Source: a virus. Taken from it: a stretch of 64,000 nucleotides of DNA. The DNA is taken from IMG/VR virus record IMGVR_UViG_3300026097_001223, positions 118,330-182,329 of that record, one strand, 5' to 3'. Below, in pieces: positions 29,921 to 63,018 of the stretch (its first letter is position 1; each line of letters starts with the position of its first letter). A model generated the notes under the pieces. That model had not been told where the DNA came from. It saw nothing but the letters and a program-made list of their open reading frames with translations, and made no database searches. Both the position numbers and the translations under genes were made by a program.

Positions 29921-29938
29921 GTTTACTGAGGTATTATA

Positions 29939-31897: not shown

Positions 31898-31918
31898 TCT
31901 ATAACAAAGAGGTCATTT

Positions 31919-35728: not shown

Positions 35729-35759
35729 AATCTATACAGATTAGAAAGGATGACAATTT

Positions 35760-41285: not shown

Positions 41286-41293
41286 TATTTATA
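41286..41293 (-). promoter_or_regulatory. late promoter, perfect TATAAATA on the minus strand
   Basis: Reverse complement reads TATAAATA followed by GACATT and the ATG of the gene at 40605-41279; 6-base gap predicts a near-leaderless mRNA. Confidence 0.65.
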
Positions 41294-41296
41294 AAC

Positions 41297-41302
41297 TAAA
41301 TA
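41297..41302 (+). promoter_or_regulatory. late-type CTAAATAG box, divergent from the previous one
   Basis: ACTAAATAG then GTTGT and ATG at 41308; 5-base gap. Forms a compact divergent pair with the minus-strand promoter. Confidence 0.55.
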
Positions 41303-41307
41303 GTTGT

Positions 41308-41847
41308 ATGAAAGAAGATATCTTCAAAGGCGACACTGATTATTGGCAGGTAGCCGAACTTATAAAAAATGTATACTTTAGCGAAGGAACGCTGGCTACG
41401 CTCATGGATTATGAACGTGTACTCGATCAGCTAGACATCTATGCTTTTCGTAATTGGGCACTAGGTGAACTGGTTGACGGTCCAGACATTTCGCGCTATA
41501 AGGTGAGTGCTACCTGGATGTATCCAATAAAAAACATGCCAGATCCTAGAGGCGCTGCTAGATTGTTGCCGTTTGATGCAGAAGTAAAATATAAAAAAAC
41601 CACAATCACTGTGCCTATCAAAGTCACAGATCCCAGTGACTTTCGCCCGGGAACACACAAGCCTAAATTGATAAAAAAACCTGTGTGGTTAGTAGAAATC
41701 ACACTGCCCAAGAGTCTCATGACCGACATACAAAAAGGCAGCATTGAGCTAGAAGACGAAATCATTGACCTCAGCGAAATTGAAGACAGTTACGCAGAGG
41801 ATCTCGATCAAGAACAGTACCAAGACACAGAAGAGACACAACTATGA
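41308..41847 (+). CDS. conserved phage protein, 179 aa, unknown
   Basis: ATG 41308 chosen because the TAAATA box sits 5 bases upstream; in-frame ATG 41281 would lie before the promoter. Soluble, with a folded first two-thirds (DYWQVAELIKNVYFSEGTLATLMDYERVLDQ) and an acidic tail (EDSYAEDLDQEQYQDTEE). Overlaps the next gene by ATGA. Probably a core phage gene, since it resumes the plus-strand run after the inserted minus-strand pair. Confidence 0.65.
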   Translation: MKEDIFKGDTDYWQVAELIKNVYFSEGTLATLMDYERVLDQLDIYAFRNWALGELVDGPDISRYKVSATWMYPIKNMPDPRGAARLLPFDAEVKYKKTTITVPIKVTDPSDFRPGTHKPKLIKKPVWLVEITLPKSLMTDIQKGSIELEDEIIDLSEIEDSYAEDLDQEQYQDTEETQL

Positions 41848-42371
41848 GCCTGGATTACAAAGACCTCGAGGGCATGCTTGACAACACTGTCAGTATTGAC
41901 AAATACGAAAGTAAAATGGGCGACGATGATGACATTGTTACTCTAGGGTTCATGGTTAAAGACGAACAGGCCGCCGACGATCTAGTGAATTGGTTTGAAA
42001 AAGGCTACGACTTTGTGATGGATGCTGATCGTTCACCCGGAGAAATCAAGCCAAATAGATTTCTTGTTTTTGTTGAACTCAAGCGCAGAACCAATGTGCC
42101 AGAGCATGTAGAAAGACTGTTGAATGATTTAGAAACTCTAACTGATCTTGATCTAGCTGATTGGAAGTTTGAATACAAGAAAAACAGTCAACCATGGAGT
42201 CAAGACGAACTCAGCAGACAGGTGCCACTGAGTCCTGCAACCTACCGTCGAGAAGAGCAAGCCTTTGATAGTGATCTCGATGCAATGAAAACCACTGCTG
42301 GACTTGACATAGAAGCCAAGCAAGTGGTTGATAAAGATCTCAAGGACATGCAAAACATCGCAGGTATCTAA
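41844..42371 (+). CDS. conserved phage protein, 175 aa, unknown
   Basis: Compact alpha/beta protein: IVTLGFMVKDEQAADDLVNWFEKGYDFVMDADRSPGEIKPNRFLVFVELKRR. Appears to be a core gene of marine T4-like phages of unknown role. Converges with the methyltransferase gene, overlapping it by 4 bases. Confidence 0.65.
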   Translation: MSLDYKDLEGMLDNTVSIDKYESKMGDDDDIVTLGFMVKDEQAADDLVNWFEKGYDFVMDADRSPGEIKPNRFLVFVELKRRTNVPEHVERLLNDLETLTDLDLADWKFEYKKNSQPWSQDELSRQVPLSPATYRREEQAFDSDLDAMKTTAGLDIEAKQVVDKDLKDMQNIAGI

Positions 42372-43102
42372 ATTTTGCGATAGCTGAAAAACAGTCTGTT
42401 GTTTGAGTCACGCTTGAACGTAAGCAAGTCTAGATTGTACTTTAATGCCAGTTCTTGTGCAACTTCAAAACTCCAAGGAAAAATATCGACATAAGGGCCG
42501 TTTTTATGTGAGATCCCTGGGTTGGCTCTTAGATAGAATGAGCCACCTGTTTTTAACAGATCTACACAATGAGAAAAACGAGCTTCGATCTCATCTCTGC
42601 TGTTAAAGTTAATACTGCCTAGTGCAATGACCACATCATATGTTTCTTTTAACACTGTGTACTCTAGTACATCAACCATGTAATCAGCATTGTCGTTGTA
42701 AGGATCAATGCCCACAATGTTCTGAACTCGTTCTTTAAATGGATGGTAGCCACAGCCAACATCCAATACTGCCTCTGGCTCTAGCTCGTTGATTTCTTTA
42801 ACCAAGCTCCAACCCGTATAATTGTAATCGTCAGTTCTTGGTCTCCACATTTCTTGAAAAAATCTATGGCTGTATTTTCTGTCGAGATCTGCTACAGCAT
42901 CTTCAATGGTTTTATCTAGATCAATTTCAAACCACGCTTCCTGCTCAATAGCTTGTATAAACTTGCGTTGCCTTGCCGGAGTCCACGGTAGGCTGTTGAG
43001 CACAGTGTGTTTATCTATGCTGTTTCTCACTGATTCAAAGCGATCTAAATGAAACGCTTCGTTGATTTTTTCAGTAACCAGTGCAAAAATTTTAGTGTTC
43101 AT
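42368..43102 (-). CDS. class I SAM-dependent methyltransferase, 244 aa
   Basis: SAM-binding motif I LDVGCGYHPFKERVQ, an acidic end of strand 2 (VGIDPYNDN), and motif IV-like YDVVIALGSINF with LLKTGGSFYLRANP after it. The start is ATG (43100-43102 on the complement), preceded by AAAGGAAA; the frame is open further upstream without such a site. Acceptor unknown; surface glycan or small-molecule methylation is possible. Minus-strand insertion between plus-strand genes. Confidence 0.82.
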   Translation of the reverse strand: MNTKIFALVTEKINEAFHLDRFESVRNSIDKHTVLNSLPWTPARQRKFIQAIEQEAWFEIDLDKTIEDAVADLDRKYSHRFFQEMWRPRTDDYNYTGWSLVKEINELEPEAVLDVGCGYHPFKERVQNIVGIDPYNDNADYMVDVLEYTVLKETYDVVIALGSINFNSRDEIEARFSHCVDLLKTGGSFYLRANPGISHKNGPYVDIFPWSFEVAQELALKYNLDLLTFKRDSNNRLFFSYRKI

Positions 43103-43132
43103 TAAAAAATTTCCTTTTCGAGCAAAAAAATG

Positions 43133-43138
43133 TAAATA
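43133..43138 (+). promoter_or_regulatory. late-type GTAAATAC box
   Basis: TGTAAATACC in the divergent gap, 46 bases before the ATG at 43185, which has its own AAAGGAA site. Confidence 0.4.
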
Positions 43139-43184
43139 CCAAGCAATTTTTTGCAATATAATATAATTATCTAAAAGGAAATAC

Positions 43185-43808
43185 ATGAAGTATATTTTTG
43201 TAGCTGGAGCACCGGGTAGTAAGTGGAGTTCAGTGGTTAAAAACATTTACTGGAGTCCAAGCTTGGATCAAAGTGACTATACAGAAGACAGAACCTATTG
43301 GCATGATGCCAGCGGCAAATATCAGCTTATGCACCTTGGCGCTTACTGGGATCCGGGCATGGAGTTCGGAAACAAGTTTGATCGGTTAAGCAGAACACCG
43401 CCAGAAATTGCAGAAAAAGAATTCCAACGTCCATTTAGAAAAGCCAAGGGCACTAAAATTATAAAAAGTCATGTGTTCTGTCATCAGTTGAATTATCTCA
43501 AAGAAGAGTTTCCAGATGATCCAAGGATTGTGGTACTGCGAGATTCAGACGCATGCCTGGGTTGGTGGGTGCGCTGTGGACACTTTGATATTACATATCC
43601 TGACTATGCAGAATACTATGTTGATTTAAAACACATGGCCAAGCAGATTGATCAGCAAAACACCGATGCAAGACAATTCTTGCAGGGAAATCCTGCAACC
43701 CAGGTACACAACAATCACGAACTTTGCCAGGCACTGGGCATACACCTACCGCCCAAGGAGTATGCTCAAGATTATGATAAAGCAAATATAGAAGTTTATC
43801 TAGCATGA
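43185..43808 (+). CDS. sulfotransferase-like P-loop protein, 207 aa
   Basis: N-terminal YIFVAGAPGSKWSSVVKNIYW resembles the PAPS-loop, KIIKSHVFCHQL and IVVLRDSDACLGWWVR sit where sulfotransferases have the SHxP and R..D blocks. Soluble. ATG follows AAAGGAA. Overlaps the TctA start by ATGA. Together with the genes at 6088, 28886, 39899 and 40605 it makes a set of divergent sulfotransferase-like proteins. Confidence 0.6.
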   Translation: MKYIFVAGAPGSKWSSVVKNIYWSPSLDQSDYTEDRTYWHDASGKYQLMHLGAYWDPGMEFGNKFDRLSRTPPEIAEKEFQRPFRKAKGTKIIKSHVFCHQLNYLKEEFPDDPRIVVLRDSDACLGWWVRCGHFDITYPDYAEYYVDLKHMAKQIDQQNTDARQFLQGNPATQVHNNHELCQALGIHLPPKEYAQDYDKANIEVYLA

Positions 43809-45259
43809 TAGAAATAGTCGCCGCAGTACTAGCAGGTACCGTTTACGGGTTAATCATTGGCATTATACCCAGTGCCGGCGCTACTACTGGACTGGTAGCA
43901 CTGTTTGGATTTATCGGATGGTTCATGAGTTTTGATCCTTACCTGGGTGTGATATTCACTATGGCAGTTGTTGCTGCTAGTACCACAGGCGACAGTTTCA
44001 GTGGTGTATTGTTGGGTATACCTGGCGCCAACAGCGCGGCTGCTACAATGGTAGATGGATTTCCATTGGCACTGCAAGGACGAGCAACATATGCACTCAC
44101 AGCCGCAGTTGTAACAAGCACAGCAAACGGATTAATCTGGGGCACACTGACCTTTGCACTGTTGCCTTGGTACAGTCAGTTGATCATGGTGTTTGGTATT
44201 CCCGAGCTGTGGGCATTTGTTTTTCTTGCATTAACCACTGTGGGTTTTGTGAGCAGCAAATATTGGTTACGCAGCATACTGGCTATCCTAGTTGGGTGCT
44301 TTGTGGGCCTAATAGGTCTGGATCCAAACACAGCCGCAGATAGATTCACATTTGGCTGGGACTACCTAGGCGACGGTGTGCAGCTGATGCCGTTTGTAGC
44401 AGGACTGTTTGCAGTTCCAGAAATTGTAGATGGACTGGTCAACAGAAAACAAACTGCTGAAATTTCTCGAGAAGGGCAACGTGGACAAACCGTACAAGGT
44501 ATACGTGCTGTTTGGACGAATTGCTGGGACGGACTGCGTGGTGGAGTAATTGGTGCATTCATTGGACTGTTGCCCGGGCTTGGTGGAGCAATGAGTGATT
44601 GGATGGCCTATGGTGCAACCACAGCAGCAAACAAAAATGAATCAGTGCCATTTGGCAAAGGCAACATCAAAGGAGTAATTGGACCAGAAGGATCCAACAA
44701 TGCACAAAAAGCAACTTCAATGATTCCCACTGTGCTGTTTGGCATTCCAGGTGCCAGTTTTGCTGCCATTGTAATGGGGTTGTTTATGTATCTAGATTTT
44801 GAACTGGGCACGCCTGCGCTAGCTAGCGACACCAAGTTTTTTGACAGCATGTTTATAGGATTCATGGCCGCCACAGTGTTGGTATGTGCAATTTGTTTGA
44901 TGTTCACTAGACATATAGCCAAGATCACATACTTGCCATACTGGATTTACACACCAGCATTGCTGGCGTTTGTGGTGTGGTCTTGTGTTCAGTACACCGG
45001 CGGCTGGGAAGATTATGCTGTGTTTGTAATCTGTAGTGCGCTTGGTATATTTGCCAAGTATTACAAGTTCAGTCGTCCTAGTATGCTGATTGCATTTATT
45101 CTTGCAGAAAGAATAGAAGCACTTAGCCTGCAAATGAGCAACTTATATACCGTGGATATGTTGTTAGACCGTCCACTGTTTTTGACCCTGATAGCATGTG
45201 CTTTTGCAATGTTTGTCTGGGGTGTGTTCTTTAATCAGAACAAACTTGATTACACATGA
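43805..45259 (+). CDS. tctA: TctA, large membrane subunit of a tricarboxylate transporter, 484 aa
   Basis: About ten to twelve hydrophobic segments. Signatures of TctA: GIIPSAGATTGLVALFGF, a LLGIPGANSAAATMVDGFPLALQGRA block near residue 70-95, and a second, similar half with LLPGLGGAMSDWMAYG, GVIGPEGSNNAQKATSMIPTVLFGIPGASFAAI. Complete in length. Works with a periplasmic TctC, encoded 9 bases downstream; the third subunit TctB is not found in this window. Substrate is probably a carboxylate, not definable from sequence. A second TctA end is at the window start. Confidence 0.93.
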   Translation: MIEIVAAVLAGTVYGLIIGIIPSAGATTGLVALFGFIGWFMSFDPYLGVIFTMAVVAASTTGDSFSGVLLGIPGANSAAATMVDGFPLALQGRATYALTAAVVTSTANGLIWGTLTFALLPWYSQLIMVFGIPELWAFVFLALTTVGFVSSKYWLRSILAILVGCFVGLIGLDPNTAADRFTFGWDYLGDGVQLMPFVAGLFAVPEIVDGLVNRKQTAEISREGQRGQTVQGIRAVWTNCWDGLRGGVIGAFIGLLPGLGGAMSDWMAYGATTAANKNESVPFGKGNIKGVIGPEGSNNAQKATSMIPTVLFGIPGASFAAIVMGLFMYLDFELGTPALASDTKFFDSMFIGFMAATVLVCAICLMFTRHIAKITYLPYWIYTPALLAFVVWSCVQYTGGWEDYAVFVICSALGIFAKYYKFSRPSMLIAFILAERIEALSLQMSNLYTVDMLLDRPLFLTLIACAFAMFVWGVFFNQNKLDYT

Positions 45260-45268
45260 GGAAATAAT

Positions 45269-46327
45269 ATGATCAAAAAACTATTTGCCACTGCGGCACT
45301 AGCAGCGTCAATTTCGACGACGGCAATAGCCGAGTACACCATTGTTGTTCCACAAAAGCCAGGCGGTGGAACAACTGTTTGGACAGAAATTGTAACACAA
45401 CAGTTAGAGAAACATCTTGGCAAGGAAATCACACTGAAATTGATTCCAGGCGCACGTGACATTCCGGGTATTAATGCTTGGCACAATGAGTACCGCTTCG
45501 ATGATAAAACCATTGTGGTTACACACGGCGGCAACGGTGTGAGCTTTCTTCAGGAGCAGGTTGACTACAACTATGCAGATTATGAATCAATCGGCTTGAT
45601 GAACTTGAACATTATTGCTGGTAAAACAGCCGGCGATGACATGAGCAATCCAAGATTTGCAGCTGGTTCGGGCATGGTACCGGAAGCATTTGCTATGACT
45701 ATGTTGCTTTGTGGCCCGGAGAAGTCTGTAGATGAATACGTGGCATGTTTCAAGGATAACGTTAACTGGGTGCCAGGTATGAGTGGCGGAGAAAGACGCC
45801 TTGCATTCCAGCGTGGCGAGCTGAACGGTACTCGTGAAAATCCAGCAAAATTCAAGAGTTCAGTACAGCCATTGATTGATTCTGGTGATGCAGAAGTTTG
45901 GTTCCATCATGGCATTCTACAAACCGATGGTAGTCACGCAGATGACCCAAACTACCCAGGCATGCAGTTTGAAATTTTATTCAAACAGCGTTGGGGAGTT
46001 GCGCCGAGTGGTGAACTATACGATGCTTATAAACTGGTTAAAAGCTTCCGTGACGGACTACAGAAAGCAATATGGATAAACACAGGCAATCCAAACCGTC
46101 AAGAGCTGGTTGATGCACTCACAGCCATGGTCAACGATCCAGAAAGCATGGCAGTGATTGAGAGCAAGGTAGGGCAGTATGATTGGGTAATTGGCGACGC
46201 TGGTAATGCACATAGAGATACACTAATGACATTTGTCACAAAACCTGCGTTGAAAAACCTAGTGAAGTTTAATCAACAAGCACTTGGATTGAATAGTGTT
46301 TTAAAGTCTGAACTTTACGAAAAGTAA
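45269..46327 (+). CDS. tctC: TctC-type periplasmic binding protein, 352 aa
   Basis: Signal peptide MIKKLFATAALAASISTTAIA, then the family opening YTIVVPQKPGGGTTVWTEIVTQQL, which forms part of the ligand pocket, and KLIPGARDIPGINAWHNEY. Length is a little above the usual about 320. GAGGAAA precedes the ATG. Encoded right after TctA in the same operon, so it most likely supplies ligand to it. TctC sequences are diverse and ligand prediction is not possible here. Confidence 0.88.
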   Translation: MIKKLFATAALAASISTTAIAEYTIVVPQKPGGGTTVWTEIVTQQLEKHLGKEITLKLIPGARDIPGINAWHNEYRFDDKTIVVTHGGNGVSFLQEQVDYNYADYESIGLMNLNIIAGKTAGDDMSNPRFAAGSGMVPEAFAMTMLLCGPEKSVDEYVACFKDNVNWVPGMSGGERRLAFQRGELNGTRENPAKFKSSVQPLIDSGDAEVWFHHGILQTDGSHADDPNYPGMQFEILFKQRWGVAPSGELYDAYKLVKSFRDGLQKAIWINTGNPNRQELVDALTAMVNDPESMAVIESKVGQYDWVIGDAGNAHRDTLMTFVTKPALKNLVKFNQQALGLNSVLKSELYEK

Positions 46328-46336
46328 AAAACCGAG

Positions 46337-46342
46337 TAAATA
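46337..46342 (+). promoter_or_regulatory. late-type GTAAATAC box
   Basis: GAGTAAATACACTC, 25 bases before the ATG at 46368; the box is flanked by a short inverted repeat CGAGT/ACTCG. AAAGGAA site between. Confidence 0.5.
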
Positions 46343-46367
46343 CACTCGTTAACAAAAGGAATTCCTG

Positions 46368-47048
46368 ATGACAATCGATAAATCATCTTTCTCTAGCAAC
46401 TGGGCATACGGCCAAGCTAAGAGTAACTATCATTTCAACAATGATCTACTAGACAAAATGGGTCAATACTCATTTGCAGCTGGTCGCTTTGAGGGCGATT
46501 GGAATGCAGAACTTGAAACTGTCAAAGCCAGCATTGCTCCATTGAATTGGAGAAACAGAAAAGACACTGTAAGCGACATGATCGACGCCGAAGAAGCAGA
46601 TCTTGTAGCTGCAGGTGCACCTGCTGATATGACAATTTCAGACTATTACACAGGTGACTGGTCAAACATTCCTGTGATCAACAGCATGATTGACGTTTTT
46701 GGTCTCAACAATGTAGAAAAGAAACTGCATGTGCACAGTCTTGGGCAAGGCTGGAACATTCACATTGATAAACTGGAAGATCGCAATCCAAGCGATCCAA
46801 GTCGTGTTTATCGTTTTATGGTACAGCTAACTGATTGGGAACCTGGTCATTTTGTACTCTACGGTAACCACCATCATCAAGGTTGGAAAGCAGGTGATAT
46901 TACATGGTTTGACTGGGCAAATACCCCACACGCCACAGCAAACATGAACTACAAGCCAAGAATCATGCTCATGGTTACTGGTGTTGCAACTGCTAAAACT
47001 GACGAGTTTATCAACAACGCTACTATAAAAAATCGTTACTCAGTTTAA
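46368..47048 (+). CDS. 2-oxoglutarate/Fe(II) oxygenase, beta-hydroxylase-like, 226 aa
   Basis: Jelly-roll oxygenase resembling aspartyl/asparaginyl hydroxylases: first metal pair H131-x-D133 in WNIHIDKLED, second His near residue 188 in NTPHATANM, and an Arg near 197 (KPRIMLMVTG) for 2-oxoglutarate. The HxD...H triad is intact. Behind a late-type promoter. It overlaps the kinase gene by one base. Protein or small-molecule substrate is not known. Confidence 0.78.
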   Translation: MTIDKSSFSSNWAYGQAKSNYHFNNDLLDKMGQYSFAAGRFEGDWNAELETVKASIAPLNWRNRKDTVSDMIDAEEADLVAAGAPADMTISDYYTGDWSNIPVINSMIDVFGLNNVEKKLHVHSLGQGWNIHIDKLEDRNPSDPSRVYRFMVQLTDWEPGHFVLYGNHHHQGWKAGDITWFDWANTPHATANMNYKPRIMLMVTGVATAKTDEFINNATIKNRYSV

Positions 47049-47470
47049 TGATTAAAATTCTTGTTATGGGATTGCCAGGCTCCGGAAAGACCTGGCTTTC
47101 CCAACGTTTACAAAAACATCTCGAGTGTGCATGGTACAATGCAGATGCTCTTAGAGAAATGGCCAACGATTGGGAGTTTAATCAGGAGGCTAGACAACGT
47201 CAAGCTCTAAGAATGCGAAACATTGCTGACTTTGAACGCAATCAAGGCAAATCAGTTATCTGCGATTTTGTGTGCCCTACTAAAATTACACGAACATTGT
47301 TTAAAGCTGATGCTGTGATTTGGGTAGACACCATCGACAGCGGTAGATTTGAAGACACAAACCGTGTGTTTGAACCGCCAGAATCAGTTGATTATCATAT
47401 CACTGAACATTTATCAGATGCCGAGATTGCTGACCTAGCAGAGCAAATCAAGCATGACAGAGGTATCTAA
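47048..47470 (+). CDS. adenylylsulfate-kinase (CysC)-like P-loop kinase, 140 aa
   Basis: Walker A GLPGSGKT at residues 8-15, then WYNADALREMANDWEF and ICDFVCPT, matching the APS-kinase-type fold in which NADxxR and DF/VC blocks bind the substrate. Shorter than normal CysC (about 200), lacking part of the C-terminal region. Related kinases phosphorylate cytidine-diphosphoramidate and similar compounds, so the substrate may differ from adenylylsulfate. Overlaps DUF2061 downstream. Confidence 0.65.
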   Translation: MIKILVMGLPGSGKTWLSQRLQKHLECAWYNADALREMANDWEFNQEARQRQALRMRNIADFERNQGKSVICDFVCPTKITRTLFKADAVIWVDTIDSGRFEDTNRVFEPPESVDYHITEHLSDAEIADLAEQIKHDRGI

Positions 47471-47669
47471 AACAAGACACCTAGCAAAAGCAGTAACCTG
47501 GAGAGTTGTAGCCAGTATTACCACGGCCGCTATTGCATGGTATTTCGGCTTGCCAGCAAAAGCCGTTGGATTTGTGTTTGCAGCAGATTTAGTTATCAAG
47601 TTTGTTTTGTACTATATACATGAGAGAATATGGTACAAGCATATTAAATTTGGAGTGAAAGATGTTTGA
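47454..47669 (+). CDS. DUF2061 membrane protein, 71 aa
   Basis: Short membrane protein with ALAKAVTWRVVASITTAAIAWYF-type first helix region and FVLYYIHERIWYKHIKFG at the end. This is the DUF2061 pattern (WRxxxS...YYxHERxW), a family seen beside sulfate-activation and nucleotidyltransferase genes. Lies between the kinase and the nucleotidyltransferase, overlapping both. Role unknown. Confidence 0.85.
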   Translation: MTEVSKTRHLAKAVTWRVVASITTAAIAWYFGLPAKAVGFVFAADLVIKFVLYYIHERIWYKHIKFGVKDV

Positions 47670-48063
47670 TTGGAAAAAGCCTACAACACAGATGCTGGGC
47701 AGGTGGCAACCTTGGCACGATGGACACACTGCACTGTTTAAAAAAGCATTAGCAGAAACAGGGCAAGTGATTATCATGTGCAGAGATGTGCCCAAAGATG
47801 TTGAAGCAAATGCTCGGGTTCCTGGTCAGAACGACAATCCTTTTGACTACAGCAGGGTAGTAATAAATATAAGAGAAGGACTTGCAAAACACGGCTTTTA
47901 CGAAGACCAGCACTATGTGATAATGCAAGTGCCAAACATTGTGGACATCAGTTATGGACGCGGTGTAGGATATACATTCACTGAGCATGATCTCGGTGAT
48001 GACATTCACAGTATTTCTGCAACAAAGATTCGTGCAGAGATGAGAAACAAAGGCGAACTATAA
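47662..48063 (+). CDS. cytidylyltransferase-type nucleotidyltransferase, 133 aa
   Basis: HxGH superfamily nucleotidyltransferase: GRWQPWHDGH at residues 13-22 binds ATP or CTP phosphates and ISATKIR near residue 120 is the second signature. It would activate a sugar or phospho-compound by attaching a nucleotide. Clusters with a CysC-like kinase and DUF2061, suggesting one pathway, possibly for a surface glycan or phosphoramidate-like decoration; this is inference. Confidence 0.82.
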   Translation: MFDWKKPTTQMLGRWQPWHDGHTALFKKALAETGQVIIMCRDVPKDVEANARVPGQNDNPFDYSRVVINIREGLAKHGFYEDQHYVIMQVPNIVDISYGRGVGYTFTEHDLGDDIHSISATKIRAEMRNKGEL

Positions 48064-48072
48064 GGATTTAAA

Positions 48073-54974: not shown

Positions 54975-55671
54975 AACTGTGGTGCGCACTGATCTCTGGT
55001 ACGGCAAGTACTCCTACAAAATGCATGGAGTTTTGCCTCTTGCATTTGTGATCAGAGAATGGTGGCTCACAAACGAAGATGACATCTATGAGTCATGTCA
55101 ACGTAGAAAAGACTGGATGCAGATGGTTCCGCGCACCATGCGGCCCATCCATTCTAGATCGGATGTTCATACATCATTTACATCCACCAGGTTAGATCCA
55201 ATGGATTGTGTGGAATCTTTGATTGACACCTGTCTTTATCTACAGGATAATGCCGATTATGTGCAAACAGTAATCGAAGGCGACTGGTTTAGATTGTACA
55301 CAGATGAAGAAAGCATTGTCAATGACTTTATGAGCCGCAGTGTTATACAGAGAAAACAAAGCAGTCAAGTGTCAGTGGTTGGGCCTAAAAACGCAGTGCT
55401 ACTTAAAAAAAGCCAGTATGCTAAACGCTGTGTTCTGCAAGGACTAAAAACAGATGACAAACAAAAAAGTATCCTGGCTCACTGGATTGAGACCAACGAT
55501 GTAAAAGCATGTCCTACTCTTAAAGAATTTTACAAAAACGACATGCCTTGGTATAACTATGTACCGCGAGACACGTTTTTTGATTTTAACGACGAAAAAC
55601 TGTTAACCAGTTTGTGTCTAACACTGCCTGGTATAGTTAAAGAAATTAAACCGATTGTTATCTATAAATAA
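54967..55671 (+). CDS. conserved phage protein, 234 aa, unknown
   Basis: Soluble protein with no motif recognised. Blocks include WYGKYSYKMHGVLPLAFVIREWWLTNEDDIYESCQRRKDW and a C-terminal FFDFNDEKLLTSLCLTLPGIVKEI. Starts 8 bases before the ClpA stop. Ends at a TATAAATA box for the next gene. Unknown. Confidence 0.65.
   Translation: MHKTVVRTDLWYGKYSYKMHGVLPLAFVIREWWLTNEDDIYESCQRRKDWMQMVPRTMRPIHSRSDVHTSFTSTRLDPMDCVESLIDTCLYLQDNADYVQTVIEGDWFRLYTDEESIVNDFMSRSVIQRKQSSQVSVVGPKNAVLLKKSQYAKRCVLQGLKTDDKQKSILAHWIETNDVKACPTLKEFYKNDMPWYNYVPRDTFFDFNDEKLLTSLCLTLPGIVKEIKPIVIYK
55663..55670 (+). promoter_or_regulatory. late promoter, perfect TATAAATA, 5 nt before ATG 55676
   Basis: TATAAATA then AAGTT then ATG. 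It overlaps the stop region of the preceding gene. The gap of 5 bases implies a near-leaderless mRNA. Confidence 0.7.
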
Positions 55672-55675
55672 AGTT

Positions 55676-55843
55676 ATGGCAAAGATTCAAGAAGAAGTAT
55701 TAGTTGTAAAACTCAGCAAGCTGTTGCGAGACACAGACACCGAAACACCCGTGCTCAATGAAGAAACCTATGAGCAACTGCATGCAGTGTTGCAAGAACT
55801 TGCAGGTTCAGGTGTACTGGTTGAATTGCAACCTGCGGATTAG
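55676..55843 (+). CDS. small hypothetical protein, 55 aa
   Basis: MAKIQEEVLVVKLSKLLRDT-type helical protein. Start at 55676 supported by the late promoter; the upstream in-frame start at 55655 lies before it. Followed closely by two virion-type proteins. Unknown. Confidence 0.6.
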   Translation: MAKIQEEVLVVKLSKLLRDTDTETPVLNEETYEQLHAVLQELAGSGVLVELQPAD

Positions 55844-55845
55844 AA

Positions 55846-56214: not shown

Positions 56215-56627
56215 TGAATTATATAAAAATCACTGCATCAGCGTCAGGCCCTCTAGACGATCGCATAGGATTCAGCGCGAGCAAAAACGACGACATTCAT
56301 CCTCGTGCTCAGGCGTTTCCTTATACCTATGAAATAAATGTATCAGCAGGAGACACTGTACACCTGTTTTTATCCGGTAAACAAGACGATCACACTGTGA
56401 TTCACAATGGCACAGTAACAGACACTGTCGAAATAAGCATAGATCAAGTATTGCTGGACAGTGTAGATATCACAGACAAGTTTATAAAGCAGTGCACCTA
56501 CAGGCACGGCTATAACGGCACCGGCGACAGTGTCAACGATGTTTTTTATGGCACCATGGGATACAACGGCGAAGTGATCATGCAGTTTGACAGAGATCCG
56601 GTTGCATGGTTAGCAAATCTGTGTTAG
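56214..56627 (+). CDS. virion-type beta protein, 137 aa
   Basis: All-beta protein with INVSAGDTVHLFLSGKQDDH and a C-terminal HGYNGTGDSVNDVFYGTMGYNGEV. Paired with the preceding gene. Probably a structural or decoration protein; no family named. Confidence 0.6.
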   Translation: MNYIKITASASGPLDDRIGFSASKNDDIHPRAQAFPYTYEINVSAGDTVHLFLSGKQDDHTVIHNGTVTDTVEISIDQVLLDSVDITDKFIKQCTYRHGYNGTGDSVNDVFYGTMGYNGEVIMQFDRDPVAWLANLC

Positions 56628-56635
56628 TATAAATA
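56628..56635 (+). promoter_or_regulatory. late promoter, perfect TATAAATA, 5 nt before ATG 56641
   Basis: TATAAATA, CTCAT, ATG. The same spacing as at 55663. Near-leaderless transcript expected. Confidence 0.7.
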
Positions 56636-56640
56636 CTCAT

Positions 56641-57618
56641 ATGAAAACAGTCGTTATAGTACCCGGCGGATATCATCCGTTTCACCAAGGACATCGAGCA
56701 CTTTATGATCAAGCCAAAAAGGCTTATCCCGGCGCTGACATCTATCTTGCCGCTACTGATGTTCAAACCGACAGACCTTTTCCGTTTAAAATAAAGCAGG
56801 CTCTTGCAAAACTAGCAGGCATTCCTACAGCACGTTTTGTGCAAGTTAAAAATCCGTTTCAGCCTCGAGAAATAGTAAGCAACTACGATCCCGACAACAC
56901 TGTACTGGTTTTTGTGCGCAGTGACAAAGATCGAGATCAAGCTCCTGTACCAGGTAGAAAACGCAAGGATGGCACGCCAGGATATCTACAACCAGCAGAC
57001 GACAGCATGCAGCCAATGAGCAAGTTTGCCTATATGGACTATGTACCCACTGTGACTTTTGGCAAAGACATGACCAGTGCCACACAGATTAGGCAAGCCT
57101 GGCCTGACATGGACACAGAACAAAAAGCTCAATTGGTAACAACACTGTATCCTGCTGTTGCCAACAACGACGCACTGAAAAACAAAACCATTGAAATGCT
57201 AGACACTGTGCTTGGCACCAGTGTGAAAGAAGCTGTTATTGTAAACGATCCAGAAGTAGGACTACAAATTCGTCCTAGCGGCGGCATGGGCACCTATGAT
57301 GAACGCAGTTTACAAAGCAGTGCAGTGCGTGACCTACGCAGTGCGCTACAAGCACTGGAGCGCGGTATGTACAGCAATGCTGAGCATGTGCTCTATGGTG
57401 CTGGTGCATTCCAGCGTAAACTACGTGCACTCAAGCAACTGGAAGACTTCCAGGAAAAACAAGGCAGCCGGTCCATTGCCAAAGGTCGTGAAATAGATCT
57501 CGGCGAAGACTATGTTGCCGAAAAATGGAGCAAAAAATACAAACAGAGTATAGACTGCGCAAACCCTAAAGGCTTCTCACAACGAGCACACTGTGACAGC
57601 CGCAAGAAAAAATCTTAA
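56641..57618 (+). CDS. HxGH nucleotidyltransferase with a phage C-terminal tail module, 325 aa
   Basis: N-terminal nucleotidyltransferase-like fold with GGYHPFHQGH (residues 9-18) and SATQIRQ near residue 144. Then a helical linker (LRSALQALERGMYSNAEH) and a C-terminal tail WSKKYKQSIDCANPKGFSQ-RAHCDSRKKK, a Cys-containing module I recall at the end of otherwise different marine phage proteins. No ribosome-binding site; the promoter is 5 bases upstream. Possibly a virion-bound or late enzyme. Substrate unknown. Confidence 0.72.
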   Translation: MKTVVIVPGGYHPFHQGHRALYDQAKKAYPGADIYLAATDVQTDRPFPFKIKQALAKLAGIPTARFVQVKNPFQPREIVSNYDPDNTVLVFVRSDKDRDQAPVPGRKRKDGTPGYLQPADDSMQPMSKFAYMDYVPTVTFGKDMTSATQIRQAWPDMDTEQKAQLVTTLYPAVANNDALKNKTIEMLDTVLGTSVKEAVIVNDPEVGLQIRPSGGMGTYDERSLQSSAVRDLRSALQALERGMYSNAEHVLYGAGAFQRKLRALKQLEDFQEKQGSRSIAKGREIDLGEDYVAEKWSKKYKQSIDCANPKGFSQRAHCDSRKKKS

Positions 57619-57636
57619 ATCTTTTTATCAAAAAGG

Positions 57637-57665
57637 TTGACACCCTGCCCAATGTTTAGTACTAT
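57637..57665 (+). promoter_or_regulatory. sigma70-type promoter
   Basis: TTGACA (57637-57642), 17-base spacer, TACTAT (57660-57665), same design as at 24813. Precedes the gene at 57698, which has AAGAGGTAAAAG before its ATG. Confidence 0.75.
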
Positions 57666-57697
57666 GTATATATAGGGTTAAGCAAGAGGTAAAAGAT

Positions 57698-57964
57698 ATG
57701 TTTCGTATTCCAACTGGTTATGTATTTGCTCCGAGTTTCGAAGATGCTGCTAAACTGATTACTGCTCGTGGACGAGGTGACATGCTGGAAGGCATGTTGA
57801 GTCTGGACCGCATGTATGAAGAATATGTAGCCAGCACACACACTGATGCTCCACTTTTCGAAAGTGACGATGATTTCTATTACACTTACAGTTATGAGTT
57901 GAATGCGTACAATGTAGTGTACGAGAACATGAGCAGGTTGTTTGCACAAAAGAACACAGCATGA
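57698..57964 (+). CDS. small protein in its own promoter-terminator cassette, 88 aa
   Basis: Tyr-rich soluble protein (DDDFYYTYSYELNAYNVVYENMS), with a folded N-terminal part (FRIPTGYVFAPSFEDAAKLITARG). Flanked by an early-type promoter and a terminator, so it is a single-gene unit expressed independently of the late genes around it. Unknown; such cassettes often encode small host-takeover proteins. Confidence 0.7.
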   Translation: MFRIPTGYVFAPSFEDAAKLITARGRGDMLEGMLSLDRMYEEYVASTHTDAPLFESDDDFYYTYSYELNAYNVVYENMSRLFAQKNTA

Positions 57965-57992
57965 CGCTATAACACCAAAACTATTGCTCCGG

Positions 57993-58028
57993 GCTTAGAT
58001 ATGCTATATAGTGTATCTAAGCTTTTTT
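57993..58028 (+). terminator. rho-independent terminator
   Basis: Stem GCTTAGATA (57993-58001) with TATCTAAGC (58014-58022), 12-base loop, then TTTTTT. Closes the single-gene cassette at 57698. Confidence 0.85.
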
Positions 58029-58047
58029 ATATCACAAAGGACCTTTT

Positions 58048-58914
58048 ATGACCGAAGAAACACAAGCGCAGGTTGACCCGCAAAACCAAATTCAAGTAGA
58101 TATTGAATATCTACGCACCACTCGTGTACACATCTGTATGCCATGCTATGGTGGCATGCTCACAGAACAGGTGTTCATGAGTTTTATCAAATGGAGTAAC
58201 ACATGTCGTCAGTTGGGCATTGACTGGACATTGGAGACCATGACAAACGAAAGTTTGATCAGTCGTGCAAGAAACACACTGGTAGCCAAGTTCCTTAACA
58301 ACCCAGACAGCACACACCTGTTCTTTGTTGACGCAGACATCGGCTGGGAGCCATGGCAACTGCTGGTGTTGTTGAACCACCAAAAAGACGTAGTCGGCGG
58401 TTTATACCCTATGAAGACTCTTCCAATTAAGTGGGTAGTTAACGGTATAGAAGGTGCCGAGACTGAAGACAACGGCAACTTGCTGGAAGTCAGTAAAACT
58501 GGCACAGGCTTTATGTTGATCAAGCGTGATGTGTTTGACAAGGTCAAAGAGCACGACGATACCGTTCACTTCAACAATGACATTGGACTTGATCCTGCAC
58601 TGGACAAGAACATGTATACATTCTTTGACACAGTGGTCCGTGATGGTCGCTACTATTCTGAAGACTGGGACTTCTGCGAAAAGTTCCGTGACCTTGGCGG
58701 TAAGATCTGGGTAGACAAGCGAGTGCTACTGCGCCACACAGGCACATTTGTATTCAATCACGAAGTTCAAGACAAGCTGTATCTCGAATTGGATAAACTG
58801 GCCAAAGAAAATGCTGCTCAGCAGTCAGAAACTGCGGTAATAGAACCTGCAGAGGATGCACCAGTTGACCCTGAAATAGTGGTTGAAGATCAGTCTAGCA
58901 AAGACGACGCATAA
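58048..58914 (+). CDS. GT-A-type glycosyltransferase, 288 aa
   Basis: Family-2-like glycosyltransferase. VHICMPCYGGMLTEQ starts the nucleotide-sugar domain, SRARNTLVAKFL is followed by HLFFVDADIGWEP with a DxD-type motif near residue 94, and YYSEDWDFCEKFRDLGGKIWVDK marks the C-terminal acceptor region. Acidic tail. AAGGACC ribosome site. Common in marine myoviruses; likely glycosylates a virion protein or modified DNA base, target unknown. Confidence 0.85.
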   Translation: MTEETQAQVDPQNQIQVDIEYLRTTRVHICMPCYGGMLTEQVFMSFIKWSNTCRQLGIDWTLETMTNESLISRARNTLVAKFLNNPDSTHLFFVDADIGWEPWQLLVLLNHQKDVVGGLYPMKTLPIKWVVNGIEGAETEDNGNLLEVSKTGTGFMLIKRDVFDKVKEHDDTVHFNNDIGLDPALDKNMYTFFDTVVRDGRYYSEDWDFCEKFRDLGGKIWVDKRVLLRHTGTFVFNHEVQDKLYLELDKLAKENAAQQSETAVIEPAEDAPVDPEIVVEDQSSKDDA

Positions 58915-58917
58915 ATA
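58912..58917 (+). promoter_or_regulatory. late-type ATAAATAG box
   Basis: GCATAAATAGAG across the previous stop; ATG at 58946 with GGAG between. Confidence 0.5.
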
Positions 58918-58945
58918 GAGTTTTAAACATTATTGGAGTTTGTTT

Positions 58946-59275
58946 ATGTTAGACCCTAAAGATTTTACAGCACAAATCGCACGTGATTGCGAAGAACTAT
59001 ATCAGTACCATGAAAACTCAGTCAAGGAGTTCATGGCCAGCACACCAAGCGATGAAGACTTTGTACAGTACTTCACAAACAGAATGATCAATGAGCGCAT
59101 CAATTGCACAGAGATCAGTCGCCGTGTAGCAAACCTAGACCTTGACACACCAGCAGAAGACATGTTTATTCTCAGCAAACAAGCATGGGATGAAGCCAAG
59201 CACTTCCGCATGGTAAAAGAAATTGTTGAATTTTACAAAGGCAGCGAAGTTGATGTAGAAGAAGATGAAAGCTAG
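58946..59275 (+). CDS. di-iron ferritin-like protein, half 1 (first helix pair), 109 aa
   Basis: Carries one E...ExxH pair: Glu50 in INERINCTEI and E83-A-K-H86 in WDEAKHFRM, the first half of a four-helix di-iron site. The second half with its own E...ExxH is in the next gene. GGAG before ATG 58946. The end overlaps the next start by 11 bases in a different frame. Together they look like a ferritin or rubrerythrin-like fold split between two chains. Function unknown; an oxygen-activating or iron-storage role is possible. Confidence 0.75.
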   Translation: MLDPKDFTAQIARDCEELYQYHENSVKEFMASTPSDEDFVQYFTNRMINERINCTEISRRVANLDLDTPAEDMFILSKQAWDEAKHFRMVKEIVEFYKGSEVDVEEDES

Positions 59276-59642
59276 CCGTGAAAGAGAACAACAAGGAGGT
59301 GACATCCGTCCCGCAACACTGCTAGAAAAGTTCGAAGCCAGCGAAGATCCACTGAGCATTGCAGTGTATCAGTTTATTGCAGAAGGCATGGCAGCCCGTA
59401 ATTGGGATATGCAAGCTAAAACTGCGCCAAACGATTTTGTTCGCTCACGCTACGAAGAAATTGCCAAGGACGAAAAGTTCCACAGCAACATCGGCAAGCG
59501 CAGTCTTGAAATGCTAGCCACAGACGAAGAAACTCAAGCCAAAGCAAAAATGATCTCAGACGAAGTTATCAACCTACTTTGGAACATTGGCTGTATCGCA
59601 CAGCATGTACCAACACACGCAATGGAAGACCTCAAGGCATAA
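59265..59642 (+). CDS. di-iron ferritin-like protein, half 2 (second helix pair), 125 aa
   Basis: Carries Glu40 in YQFIAEGMAARNW and E70-K-F-H73 in AKDEKFHSN, matching helices 3 and 4 of a di-iron four-helix bundle. Its ATG lies within the end of the previous gene, with AGAAGAAG as a weak site. A programmed frameshift joining both frames is possible but no slippery sequence is obvious. The C-terminal WNIGCIAQHVPTHAMEDL is extra. Confidence 0.75.
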   Translation: MKASREREQQGGDIRPATLLEKFEASEDPLSIAVYQFIAEGMAARNWDMQAKTAPNDFVRSRYEEIAKDEKFHSNIGKRSLEMLATDEETQAKAKMISDEVINLLWNIGCIAQHVPTHAMEDLKA

Positions 59643-59664
59643 CATTGCTACAGTTTGTTCAGCG

Positions 59665-59672
59665 CATAAATA
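59665..59672 (+). promoter_or_regulatory. late-type CATAAATA box, 4 nt before ATG 59677
   Basis: GCATAAATATGTT then ATGCGC. The same box-plus-start (TAAATA, 4-5 bases, ATGCGC) recurs at 62360 and 62855. Confidence 0.65.
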
Positions 59673-59676
59673 TGTT

Positions 59677-61818
59677 ATGCGCTTGAATGAACTACCCGAA
59701 CACGACAATAACAAAGAAGACGCCAGCTCTGATCAACCTCCTAAGCCAGGAAGAGAAGAGCTGAGCCGTTTCTTCGAATCAGCAGATACCAACAGCCAAC
59801 TTGAAATGCGTATTGCACTCAAAATGCAAAACCGCGCACAGGTGCTTGACCTATTAGAAGCTGGTGGCTATATTCCAGTAAACAACAAAGAAGCACAAGA
59901 CCCACGTTTTAAAACTGCACTCACAGTGGATATCAAGCCAGGTGAAGTTCAGCGTCAAGCTAAGAAAATGGGCTTCACTACAGATCGTGCCGGTGTGCCA
60001 CCATTGTTACACAAATCAGCTGCAAAAAACACAAGTGCAAACAAGGCATACAACATTGGACTTGCAGAAGATGCAAATCGTAGTCCTCAGGTAACCCAGG
60101 CAGACTTAAATGCACTAGAACAGTATGCCGACAAACTGTTTGGTAAAGTTGGCATTGATGTTGAATTTACTCGTCATTTCTTGGATAGAGTAAACGACGA
60201 GCGCAACCTAAAACAGATTACCATAGCCGAACTAACAAGACTGTTTAAGCAGGAATACAAGCGTTGGGGCAAGCGTATTGCACAACTTGGTCCAGATGCA
60301 CAAGCTGTAATGAAAGACATGCGCACCGACGTTAACATGCCGTTTGTGTTGACATGGGACGCACAAAATCAAGAACTGGATCTAGTTGCTAAAACAGTTA
60401 TGCGTAAAAAAGATTTTAAAACCAGCAATCAAGAATTTGCCATTGAAGACGGGCCTCTTGCAACAATTCAAAGAGCTGTTGCTCCAAAAATAAAACGCAA
60501 GGCCTATGACTATGCCGCTAAAACACTGCATGATGTAATACAGCGTAAAAAAGCCACAGGACAAAAACTTGTCCACACATTGGAATATTACGCACAGCGT
60601 GTGGGCAACAGTATCAAAGGCATTGATTATAGAGCTTTAACTGACTACTATATCGAACAGTATGGGACACCCGAGAGCTATACCGACCTAGAGCGATCTG
60701 TACTAGAATCAGGATACAGTCTAGACGACCTCGATGAAAACTTTGCGAATGGGAAGAAAATAAATGAAAAACTAAAATATCAGTCAAGTCTATCTAAAAA
60801 AATATTCAACCCTAGCGGGTATATAGAAAATCAAGGTGATTCAATTTACGGGTTGTGGCTTCCTTTGTCAGATAGCATAGTGAATAAAATTATCCCTAAA
60901 CAAAGAGCAAGGGTCTTTCACGTTACCGGAGTAGGAAACATAAACAAGATGTTTAACCTACAAGGACAGAAAAAAAGCATAAGTGCTTTCACAAATATGG
61001 ATTCCTATTATTTAGATAAAGGAATTGTTAGCGGAGGCGGAGGAGGTGTAATCTTTGAATTAGATGCCAATGTGCTTGGTGCTTTTAATCAAGATGTTGA
61101 AAGTGCTCCAGACACCGGCGGAAGGCGATGGATAACCCTCGACGCACTGATAGAGTTTAGTGGTAAAAATCGCAACGATCTAAAACCAATGTACGGTGAG
61201 ATGGCCAAACTTATCCAAAGTTTGCTGGATAAACATGCTCCTGACATGGATTATACAGACGAATATGATGATTATGAACTTACTGTCGATAAATGGACAG
61301 AACTGGGACAAAAATTGACCGCCGACGGCGACGGTAAAAAAATATCTGTTTTAATCAAAGATTATATAGATGGTGTATATGCAATAATGATCAAACATGC
61401 CAAACCCATAGGGCAAGCATTACAATCGTCTCTGTCAGACTCTGAAGGTTTAGATACAGACTGGAACGAAATAGTTGTAAATGACATCAAAGTTTTGCAG
61501 ATGCATGTGTTAAAAGATAGCGTAGAAAATTTAGAAAAACTCAAAGAGTTGGAATCTAAAGGCATAAAAGTTCGTGTATGGAATTCACCACAAGAACTTT
61601 CCAACTATACGAAAAAAGTCGGAGCACAACAGAAATTAGGTGAAAACTTTGCTGATGGTAAAAAGAAAGGCAAAAGCAGACCGGGGCGTGTAAAACGTGC
61701 AGGTGCTAGTTGCAAAGGGTCAGTCACTGATCTCAGAGCCAAGGCCAAAAAGTATTCCGGCGAACGTGGTAAAATGTATCACTGGTGCGCTAATATGAAA
61801 TCTGGTAAAAAGAAATGA
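59677..61818 (+). CDS. composite virion-associated protein with an inserted domain, 713 aa
   Basis: ATG 59677 is chosen for the adjacent late promoter; upstream frame is not needed. Residues about 140-260 (VEFTRHFLDRVNDERNLKQIT ... LDLVAKTVMRKKDFKTSN) are a domain I associate with marine T4-like structural proteins. The middle (about 365-655) has RVFHVTGVGNINKMF, KKSISAFTNM and GGGVIFELDANV, faintly like an ADP-ribosyltransferase-type fold. The tail CKGSVTDLRAKAKKYSGERG-KMYHWCANMKSGKKK is a Cys-containing C-terminal module. The middle segment lies between imperfect direct repeats (60736 and 61642). Confidence 0.7.
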   Translation: MRLNELPEHDNNKEDASSDQPPKPGREELSRFFESADTNSQLEMRIALKMQNRAQVLDLLEAGGYIPVNNKEAQDPRFKTALTVDIKPGEVQRQAKKMGFTTDRAGVPPLLHKSAAKNTSANKAYNIGLAEDANRSPQVTQADLNALEQYADKLFGKVGIDVEFTRHFLDRVNDERNLKQITIAELTRLFKQEYKRWGKRIAQLGPDAQAVMKDMRTDVNMPFVLTWDAQNQELDLVAKTVMRKKDFKTSNQEFAIEDGPLATIQRAVAPKIKRKAYDYAAKTLHDVIQRKKATGQKLVHTLEYYAQRVGNSIKGIDYRALTDYYIEQYGTPESYTDLERSVLESGYSLDDLDENFANGKKINEKLKYQSSLSKKIFNPSGYIENQGDSIYGLWLPLSDSIVNKIIPKQRARVFHVTGVGNINKMFNLQGQKKSISAFTNMDSYYLDKGIVSGGGGGVIFELDANVLGAFNQDVESAPDTGGRRWITLDALIEFSGKNRNDLKPMYGEMAKLIQSLLDKHAPDMDYTDEYDDYELTVDKWTELGQKLTADGDGKKISVLIKDYIDGVYAIMIKHAKPIGQALQSSLSDSEGLDTDWNEIVVNDIKVLQMHVLKDSVENLEKLKELESKGIKVRVWNSPQELSNYTKKVGAQQKLGENFADGKKKGKSRPGRVKRAGASCKGSVTDLRAKAKKYSGERGKMYHWCANMKSGKKK
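60736..60760 (+). repeat. direct repeat, left copy, at the edge of the inserted segment
   Basis: GAAAACTTTGCGAATGGGAA encodes ENFANGKK. The right copy at 61642 encodes ENFADGKK. The copies are 906 bases apart, in frame. Confidence 0.7.
61642..61666 (+). repeat. direct repeat, right copy
   Basis: GAAAACTTTGCTGATGGTAA, followed by the tail module of the composite protein. Imperfect match to 60736-60760 (differences at a few third-codon and one second-codon positions). Confidence 0.7.
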
Positions 61819-62366
61819 ACATAGAAACATTTGCAGATCCTTGGACTCATGCTATTGTTGACAATTTTTTCACATTTGAAGAAAATCATATCATTAGAAA
61901 CTATGCTAGAAATGAATTCCAACACTTGCCAAACGACCAAACGTTTAAATTTATATTACGTGAAAATAAAAAGTTTAAAGGCAGACATCACGACAGATCT
62001 ATTTGGAATTATTGCAGTAATATTGCTAGGTCAAAGTTCCCAGAATTGTGCAAGCACCTAAATGTTCCAGAAATTGACCACGAACTCTGGGTTGAATTTT
62101 CATGTTTTGGCTCTGCATGTCCTAGAGGTATACACAATGATCGCCCGGAAAAATACATAAGCTGTCTTGTTTATTTGGATGGCACAGGGTCAGGCACCTG
62201 GTTATATTCAGATTCTGAGACTCTAGAAAAGAAAATAGAATTTCGTCATAACCGGGCGTTTGTTTTTCACAACACACGAAACAAAATACATGCAGTTGGC
62301 GACAATAAACCTGGTGATTACAGAACAGCAGTTAACTTTATTTTTGCACAGCCAGCAGATAAATAA
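61815..62366 (+). CDS. 2-oxoglutarate/Fe(II) oxygenase-like protein, 183 aa
   Basis: Prolyl-4-hydroxylase-like jelly roll: GIHNDRPEK gives HxD near residue 106, NKIHAVGD (about 158) gives the second His, and DYRTAVNFIF (about 170) the 2-oxoglutarate Arg; EFRHNRAFVFHNT in between. Overlaps the previous gene by ATGA. A hydroxylase on proteins or small molecules; target unknown. Such genes are numerous in marine T4-like phages. Confidence 0.78.
   Translation: MNIETFADPWTHAIVDNFFTFEENHIIRNYARNEFQHLPNDQTFKFILRENKKFKGRHHDRSIWNYCSNIARSKFPELCKHLNVPEIDHELWVEFSCFGSACPRGIHNDRPEKYISCLVYLDGTGSGTWLYSDSETLEKKIEFRHNRAFVFHNTRNKIHAVGDNKPGDYRTAVNFIFAQPADK
62360..62365 (+). promoter_or_regulatory. late-type GATAAATA box, 4 nt before ATG 62370
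   Basis: GATAAATAATAT then ATGCGC; overlaps the previous stop. Confidence 0.6.
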
Positions 62367-62369
62367 TAT

Positions 62370-62558
62370 ATGCGCATAAATGAACTACAACGTGGACTCA
62401 AGCTGTACAAGGCTCGAATTAAATTCCCTAAGAGCAGCTTCAAGGGCAGCACACACATCACTGTGTTTGCTCGCAATCCTGCCATGGCTCGTAGACAAAT
62501 TCAAAGCCAATACGGACGACACGCTCTCATTGGCAACGTAAAACAAATCCGTAGATGA
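62370..62558 (+). CDS. small basic conserved phage protein, 62 aa
   Basis: MRINELQRGLKLYKARIKFPKSS; Arg/Lys-rich with ITVFARNPAMARRQIQSQYGR. Shares its opening (MRxNEL) and upstream box with the gene at 59677. Likely virion-associated or nucleic-acid-binding; unknown. Confidence 0.65.
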   Translation: MRINELQRGLKLYKARIKFPKSSFKGSTHITVFARNPAMARRQIQSQYGRHALIGNVKQIRR

Positions 62559-62857
62559 CAGACAACCGTTTTGTAAAAGTTTTATTTGATGTAAAAAGAA
62601 CCGACCGATCTCCGGTGGACGGAGGTTATCGTGTGTATGTCAATGACGAACTGTTTACCCAGCGTACCTGGAGTGGCAGTAATTTTTACCTCAGAGAAAT
62701 GGTGCAGATATTGGCGCCACCTGGCAAATACAATATCACCATCGAACAAAATCCTGGCACTGTAGCACAATTCAAACCCAGCAATTTTAAAGTGATATAC
62801 GGACCTGGCAAGGTCAGCACCGACGGTGTACTCACAGTAAGTACGTCTCGCCGATAA
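62555..62857 (+). CDS. small beta-rich phage protein, 100 aa
   Basis: Overlaps the previous stop (ATGA). Beta-rich sequence (GGYRVYVNDELFTQRTWSGSNFYLREMVQILAPPGKYNI), probably a small virion protein. Unknown. Confidence 0.6.
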   Translation: MTDNRFVKVLFDVKRTDRSPVDGGYRVYVNDELFTQRTWSGSNFYLREMVQILAPPGKYNITIEQNPGTVAQFKPSNFKVIYGPGKVSTDGVLTVSTSRR

Positions 62858-62860
62858 ATA
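62855..62860 (+). promoter_or_regulatory. late-type GATAAATA box, 5 nt before ATG 62866
   Basis: CCGATAAATATTGTT then ATGCGC, overlapping the previous stop. Confidence 0.65.
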
Positions 62861-62865
62861 TTGTT

Positions 62866-63018
62866 ATGCGCTTATACGAAATCATACAAGAAACCACTAC
62901 ATCGGGCAGTATTGCACCTGTAGTCCAGCCATTAGGTATCATGCAGACACGTTCCGGTAACACTAAATACAATACTCGTAAAAAGAAGAAACCGGAATAT
63001 GCTCGCAGAAGATCTTAA
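62866..63018 (+). CDS. small basic protein, 50 aa
   Basis: MRLYEIIQETTTSGSIAPVV opening, then a Lys/Arg-rich tail (NTRKKKKPEYARRRS). Third gene sharing the TAAATA-5 nt-ATGCGC start. Its end overlaps the next gene by 20 bases. Unknown. Confidence 0.6.
   Translation: MRLYEIIQETTTSGSIAPVVQPLGIMQTRSGNTKYNTRKKKKPEYARRRS

Follow-up and report, generated by a model that had tools for sequence, protein, structure and literature searches.

The DNA analysed is a stretch of 64,000 nt (the window), bases 118330-182329 of the 182,329-base virus record IMGVR_UViG_3300026097_001223, in which a box of the T4 late promoter type (TAAATA; in T4 TATAAATA) lies directly before the start codons of a number of genes. 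Window coordinates refer to this stretch and genome coordinates to the whole record. Judged by its protein matches the record is that of a T4 superfamily phage: the portal, prohead protease and major capsid proteins matched phage families with strong E-values, the capsid protein was 64-67% identical to those of jumbo phages including Vibrio 2.275.O, PA5oct and CBB, and matches to CBB were found among the replication genes (ssDNA-binding protein, RecA, helicases, ribonucleotide reductase and clamp loader). The G+C content of the genome is 42%. Genes were called by a simple script, with start codons taken from open reading frames (ORFs), not by a gene finder.

TAAATA boxes at start codons

It had been predicted from the sequence of the window that late promoters between 41286 and 62866 are placed 4-6 nt from start codons and would yield near-leaderless late mRNAs. 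All nine gaps listed in this original prediction (five of 5 nt, two of 4 nt and, on the minus strand, two of 6 nt) were exact, the gap being the number of nt between the end of the box and the ATG (Table 1). The interval given for the pattern was too narrow, as it runs across the whole record. In the record, which was cut into 20-kb pieces that were each scanned apart on both strands, TAAATA occurred 104 times and was followed by an ATG at gap 5 in 18 cases, at gap 4 in 2 and at gap 6 in 4. The background ATG count per offset (offsets 30-299) had a mean of 1.82 and a maximum of 7, and 200 second-order Markov simulations gave a mean of 2.12 and likewise a maximum of 7. Inside the window 6 of 39 boxes had an ATG at gap 5; outside it, in the region that the original prediction had not covered, there were 12 among 65 boxes where 1.1 were expected (Poisson, P 2e-9). 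The longer form ATAAATA was followed by an ATG at gap 5 in 9 of 38 occurrences and made up 9 of the 18 gap-5 sites. When 14 other arrangements of the box letters were counted in the same way, none had more than 9 ATGs at one and the same gap between 0 and 7; the arrangements that reached 9 are commoner (150-258 occurrences each), and two (ATAAAT and AAATAT) overlap the box itself.

Twenty of the 24 ATGs at gaps 4-6 were judged credible gene starts. Of the four that were dropped, three open short ORFs (21 aa at genome 11431, 17 aa at 88233 and 14 aa at 94481) and one lies inside a transfer-messenger RNA (tmRNA) gene (window 11597). The genes at 41279 and 41308 are divergent, and the 28 bp separating their start codons hold two opposed boxes. 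Further downstream, the box before ATG 62370 shares bases with the stop codon that ends ORF 61815-62366 in front of it. A terminator-like hairpin within window 12908-12945 lies directly 5' of the box before ATG 12957 (fold -15.4 kcal/mol, z -2.93; not listed by the pattern scan), and a second one, found by both fold and pattern scan, lies just 5' of the box at genome 83563. Boxes 16-50 nt upstream of the start were present in 30 called genes of the record, often together with a Shine-Dalgarno (SD) sequence. That genes with longer gaps have a visible ribosome site was clearly correct for 29939, 31919 and 35760; the contrast is less clear at 29575, where the AAGGA at 15 nt from the ATG exceeds normal SD spacing.

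Table 1. Near-box genes and contrast sites with a distant box
Feature	Box	Position	Strand	Distance to start codon	Gene or remark
Near box	TAAATA	window 12946..12951	+	5 nt to ATG 12957	55-aa ORF 12957-13124
Near box	TAAATA	window 29504..29509	-	6 nt to ATG 29497	isolated sulfotransferase-like gene 28886-29497; match phrog_3347, named galactose-3-O-sulfotransferase
Near box	TATAAATA	window 41286..41293	-	6 nt to ATG 41279	gene 40605-41279, 224 aa, no named function
Near box	TAAATA	window 41297..41302	+	5 nt to ATG 41308	gene 41308-41847, virion structural family phrog_12928
Near box	TATAAATA	window 55663..55670	+	5 nt to ATG 55676	55-aa ORF 55676-55843
Near box	TATAAATA	window 56628..56635	+	5 nt to ATG 56641	gene 56641-57618, 325 aa
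Near box	TAAATA	window 59667..59672	+	4 nt to ATG 59677	gene 59677-61818, 713 aa, phrog_23027
Near box	TAAATA	window 62360..62365	+	4 nt to ATG 62370	62-aa ORF 62370-62558
Near box	TAAATA	window 62855..62860	+	5 nt to ATG 62866	50-aa ORF 62866-63018
Near box		genome 4899			portal gene
Near box		genome 6629			74-aa gene after portal
Near box		genome 46483			gene matching virion structural family
Near box		genome 53724			cytidylyltransferase/mannose-phosphate-isomerase-like gene
Near box		genome 80886	-		radical-SAM-like gene
Near box		genome 83563			hairpin just upstream
Near box		genome 86292			gene with tail-spike matches
Near box		genome 95894			648-aa gene, weak virion match
Near box		genome 98954-99745	-		gene, 263 aa; checked separately, was split between scan pieces
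Near box		genome 115201	-		gene
Distant box		window 29542..29575	+	25 nt to ATG 29575	AAGGA 15 nt from ATG
Distant box		window 29915..29939	+	18 nt to ATG 29939	GAGGT present
Distant box		window 31892..31919	+	21 nt to ATG 31919	GAGGT present
Distant box		window 35723..35760	+	31 nt to ATG 35760	AAGGA present

Conservation and signatures of the start sites

Conservation was examined upstream of homologous genes, where a box at gap 3-8 was counted as near, alignments were accepted from residue 1-4 only and identical 20-base upstreams were counted once. The set of 17 near genes used for these counts, and for the SD and -1 counts within the record, includes the start inside the tmRNA gene, an artefact without homologues, and leaves out three short ORFs and the gene at genome 99745. 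A near box was present in 75 of 128 distinct homologue upstreams of box genes versus 4 of 510 for other genes. For the 74-aa gene after the portal, gap 5 was kept in 34 of 47 distinct upstreams at a median protein identity of 46%, and the spacer bases vary widely while the gap stays. Near boxes were also found for the 648-aa gene (11 of 16 upstreams, gaps 5-8), the 325-aa gene (4 of 10) and the 55-aa ORF at 55676 (3 of 6). At gap-5 homologue sites TAAATA was directly preceded by A in 34 of 41 cases.

The same spacing was seen in relatives, taken as the loci of the best 80 of 599 capsid-gene matches, whose gene content overlaps so that they are not independent. In these loci an ATG followed at gap 5 after 92 of 647 TAAATA and 65 of 241 ATAAATA, with lesser peaks at the leadered positions of gaps 20, 24 and 27 (41, 37 and 30 of 647). 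Among twelve large relatives 73 of the 380 TAAATA-ATG matches at gaps 0-12 (19%) were at gap 5. GTG (6) and TTG (10) at gap 5 were at background level in the 80 loci, and in the record GTG, TTG and CTG occurred there 2, 0 and 3 times. The start codon at gap 5 is thus restricted to ATG in both samples; the 17 near genes are all ATG by construction, as ATG alone was sought, and the restriction rests on these separate start-codon counts. According to the available text of one review, GUG, UUG and CUG are far less effective on leaderless mRNA in E. coli (PMC9031893).

A pyrimidine preceded the ATG at 74 of 78 near sites, as compared with 186 of 399 ATG starts without a box (homologues; Fisher 2e-17, kinship uncorrected), and within the record at 15 of 17 versus 86 of 175 (P 0.002). 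Transcription start sites show a preference for a pyrimidine at -1 and a purine at +1. Given this preference, the pyrimidine at -1 fits initiation on the A of the ATG. It still adjoins the ATG at gaps 7-8 (19 of 21), which is compatible with a start site that tracks the ATG within its normal range, or with a pyrimidine being favoured by translation. In T4, distant boxes (n=23) have T in 57% and then A in 65% at the expected start. SD-like letters were found in 0 of 17 near genes, 18 of 30 genes with a distant box and 80 of 187 genes without a box. The absence of a visible ribosome site at the near starts, as originally proposed, was therefore upheld, although in part automatically since the box occupies the SD position. 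No column outside the box exceeded 0.5 bit among the 20 sites, and 5 of these 20 had at least 4 of the 6 TTGACA letters with a spacer of 15-19, a count made without a control set. Near genes did not differ from other genes in the base content of codons 2-5, nor was the folding of their first 30 nt weaker (P 0.94).

A putative leaderless late gene set and its alternatives

In the portion available of a review on T4 late transcription the first base of the 8-bp box, A(-13), is numbered -13 (PMC2988020). The box then ends at -6 and a gap of 5 nt therefore puts +1 on the A of the ATG. With a probability of about 0.78, T4-type late promoters would yield leaderless or nearly leaderless mRNAs for about 20 genes, virion genes included. 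Presumably a gp55-class sigma factor on the host RNA polymerase would read and open the ATAAATA box, and transcription would start on the A of the AUG or at most about 3 nt before it, leaving the messages of these genes without a leader or nearly so. They would be translated without SD pairing, presumably by 70S initiation at the 5'-terminal AUG; binding of 70S ribosomes to such an AUG is given as the main leaderless route in the text at hand of PMC9031893. Other genes of the phage keep the box farther upstream, often with an SD. Promoter use of the boxes, the exact 5' end, late timing and 70S initiation are what we infer from sequence; the position of the peak, the conserved spacing, the pyrimidine at -1 and the presence of gp55 in relatives support the near-leaderless late mRNAs originally suggested.

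In each of the 11 relatives for which a stretch upstream of the capsid gene was examined, a gp55 homologue adjoins gp47 and gp46 (E 2e-40 to 9e-27; one cut by the contig end). The open frames in these relatives (e.g. L226 9217-10122) run to some 300 codons, one of them being cut, and their match to gp55 is interrupted by an additional segment; the gp55-like sigma factor is 286 aa long in CBB and 280 aa in Deifobo, compared with 185 aa in T4. In CBB gp55, gp46 and gp47 are found upstream of the portal gene. Since CBB gp55 is located about 9.4 kb before the portal and the record begins 4.9 kb before its own, the left end is probably missing from the record and gp55 with it.

Several observations weigh against leaderless late mRNAs. 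In the 182-kb record there was no match to gp55, gp46 or gp47, none to gp45 (phrog_223, or T4 gp45 by tblastn) and none to gp33 (two sequences by tblastn). Only 8 of 35 homologue upstreams of the portal gene have a near box, 8 of the 11 near boxes of the 648-aa gene are at gap 7-8, and with homologue gaps of 4-8 nt transcription may at some genes start elsewhere than on the A, possibly leaving leaders of 1-3 nt. After distant boxes in relatives no pyrimidine peak was detected at the expected -1 (44% of 63). A few gene families dominate the homologue and -1 counts, and kinship was not corrected for. Besides, some near genes are possibly also read from upstream mRNAs.

This last point leads to an unlikely alternative, in which the boxes are real late promoters and translation proceeds mainly from read-through mRNAs, coupled to the upstream gene. 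Several near genes indeed directly follow a gene on the same strand, the box overlapping or following its stop codon. However, such coupling leaves the exact 5-nt peak and its conservation unexplained, the minus-strand genes at 41279, 29497 and genome 80886, 99745 and 115201 are mostly alone or divergent, hairpins precede two of the boxes, and a read-through mRNA would likewise be without an SD as the box fills its position. It is very unlikely that TAAATA at the near sites acts as an A/U-rich signal that recruits ribosomes instead of as a promoter. The box does sit in the place of the SD, and a spacing effect on the ATG would be expected; yet ATAAATA is also found 16-50 nt from the start in the 30 genes mentioned above, often with an SD of their own, and the 28-bp divergent intergenic region has no other space for two promoters. 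Moreover, the motif was reported as late-promoter-like before structural genes of CBB and GAP32, as far as the available text goes (PMC5259590).

That the true starts are further downstream with their own SD, so that the mRNAs would ordinarily be leadered, is hardly credible. The start codons come from ORF calls, and three short ORFs among the 20 (50-62 aa) are without homologue support, but at the called ATGs the alignments of homologues start no later than residue four, and the portal N-terminus is common to CBB, 2.275.O and PA5oct (M(A/S)(S/T)WK-like). Chance has the smallest likelihood of all. TAAATA and ATG are both frequent at 42% G+C, and nine named phages also have gap-5 matches (50 of 437 at gaps 0-12, or 11%, where an even distribution would give 7.7%; mainly PA5oct with 15 of 126 and T4 with 10 of 58). 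In the record, however, 18 of the 40 matches at gaps 0-12 were at gap 5, against at most 7 in the simulations, and the excess was repeated outside the window. Chance is refuted for the sites taken together, though possibly not for each one; 4 of the 24 were dropped.

A box touching the portal start was absent from three sequenced outgroups, CBB, 2.275.O and PA5oct; at this start 2.275.O has a clear SD-like sequence and CBB has one as well. The near box is thus likely to be a derived state. We lean towards the broader view that the clade fused the late promoter with the start codon, giving an exactly leaderless set with virion genes among it, a second class of translation late in infection, independent of the SD, with individual genes moving in or out of it from one related phage to another. 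Together with relatives whose portal gene is still leadered at this start codon, the clade would then offer natural pairs that show when leaderless messages are used; leaderless translation has mostly been studied on few model mRNAs. A promoter placed on the start codon would predict exact mRNA 5' ends from the sequence, and start calling that relies on the SD could miss or shift such genes.

Two possible helpers of translation were considered and rejected. The tRNA-Met of the window (2627-2703) was no candidate for a phage initiator tRNA when held against the known initiator features, as its acceptor end is paired and its anticodon stem is without GGG/CCC. A phage IF3 as in CBB was not found either, CBB IF3 having no tblastn match in the record at E 0.01. 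The window carries five tRNA genes between 2627 and 7666 (Met-CAT, Arg-TCT, Ser-GCT, Leu-TAG and Gly-GCC), all in its first 8 kb, and ARAGORN detected no tRNA genes elsewhere in the record. The tmRNA gene mentioned above (window 11214-11612) is of the permuted two-piece type with the tag ANDENFALAA; a relative has one too (L238 16069-16461, tag ANAANDEVFALAA). The Rfam models that were matched, alphaproteobacterial and permuted, are a possible hint at the host class.

Comparison with known systems

The boxes resemble the late promoters of T4, which are served by gp55, gp33 and gp45: the AT-rich box is the same, the phage belongs to the T4 superfamily and its relatives have a gp55 homologue. 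Unlike in this record, where many boxes would set +1 on the A of the AUG and gp33 and gp45 were not found, the distances from TATAAATA to ATG in T4 cluster at 21-29 nt (26 of the 40 ATG matches at gaps 0-30), with an ATG at gap 5 after 1 of 32 boxes; in Syn9 it followed 1 of 38 ATAAATA. With TAAATA alone, gap 5 was seen in 10 of 225 cases in T4, mildly above the neighbouring gaps (0-7), and 4 of these 10 open ORFs of at least 40 aa. At 113433 on the plus strand of T4 (NC_000866) TAAATA-N5-ATG opens a 335-aa frame. Isolated near-start boxes may thus exist in T4 too.

For the jumbo phages CBB and GAP32 ATAAATA late promoters had already been predicted, and CBB was described as having gp55 without gp33 or gp45 homologues, in the sections of the source available (PMC5259590). 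The motif before structural genes is the same as here; the difference is that in the stretch of CBB examined the boxes are well upstream and the portal gene, behind an SD-like GGAG, has no near box. The 375 leaderless mRNAs reported for Caulobacter crescentus, where such messages are common (PMC4117421, available part), share a +1 at or next to the AUG and the lack of an SD, which are here predicted from sequence; they differ in that the set predicted here would be the late regulon of a phage, under a promoter of phage type. Late promoters of the phiKZ type also have a motif that contains the letters ATG (TATG), but the motif is another one and so is the machinery, a multisubunit phage polymerase with a G start site; one remark in the accessible text of that source holds that phage transcripts are often leaderless (PMC5312081). 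In the literature covered, to which subscription papers mostly did not belong, no paper described T4-type late mRNAs as leaderless in its title, abstract opening or text passages. Leaderless mRNA and ATAAATA promoters were both already known, and what appears to be new is that in a clade of phages a set of genes has a T4-type late box placed so that +1 would be the A of the AUG.

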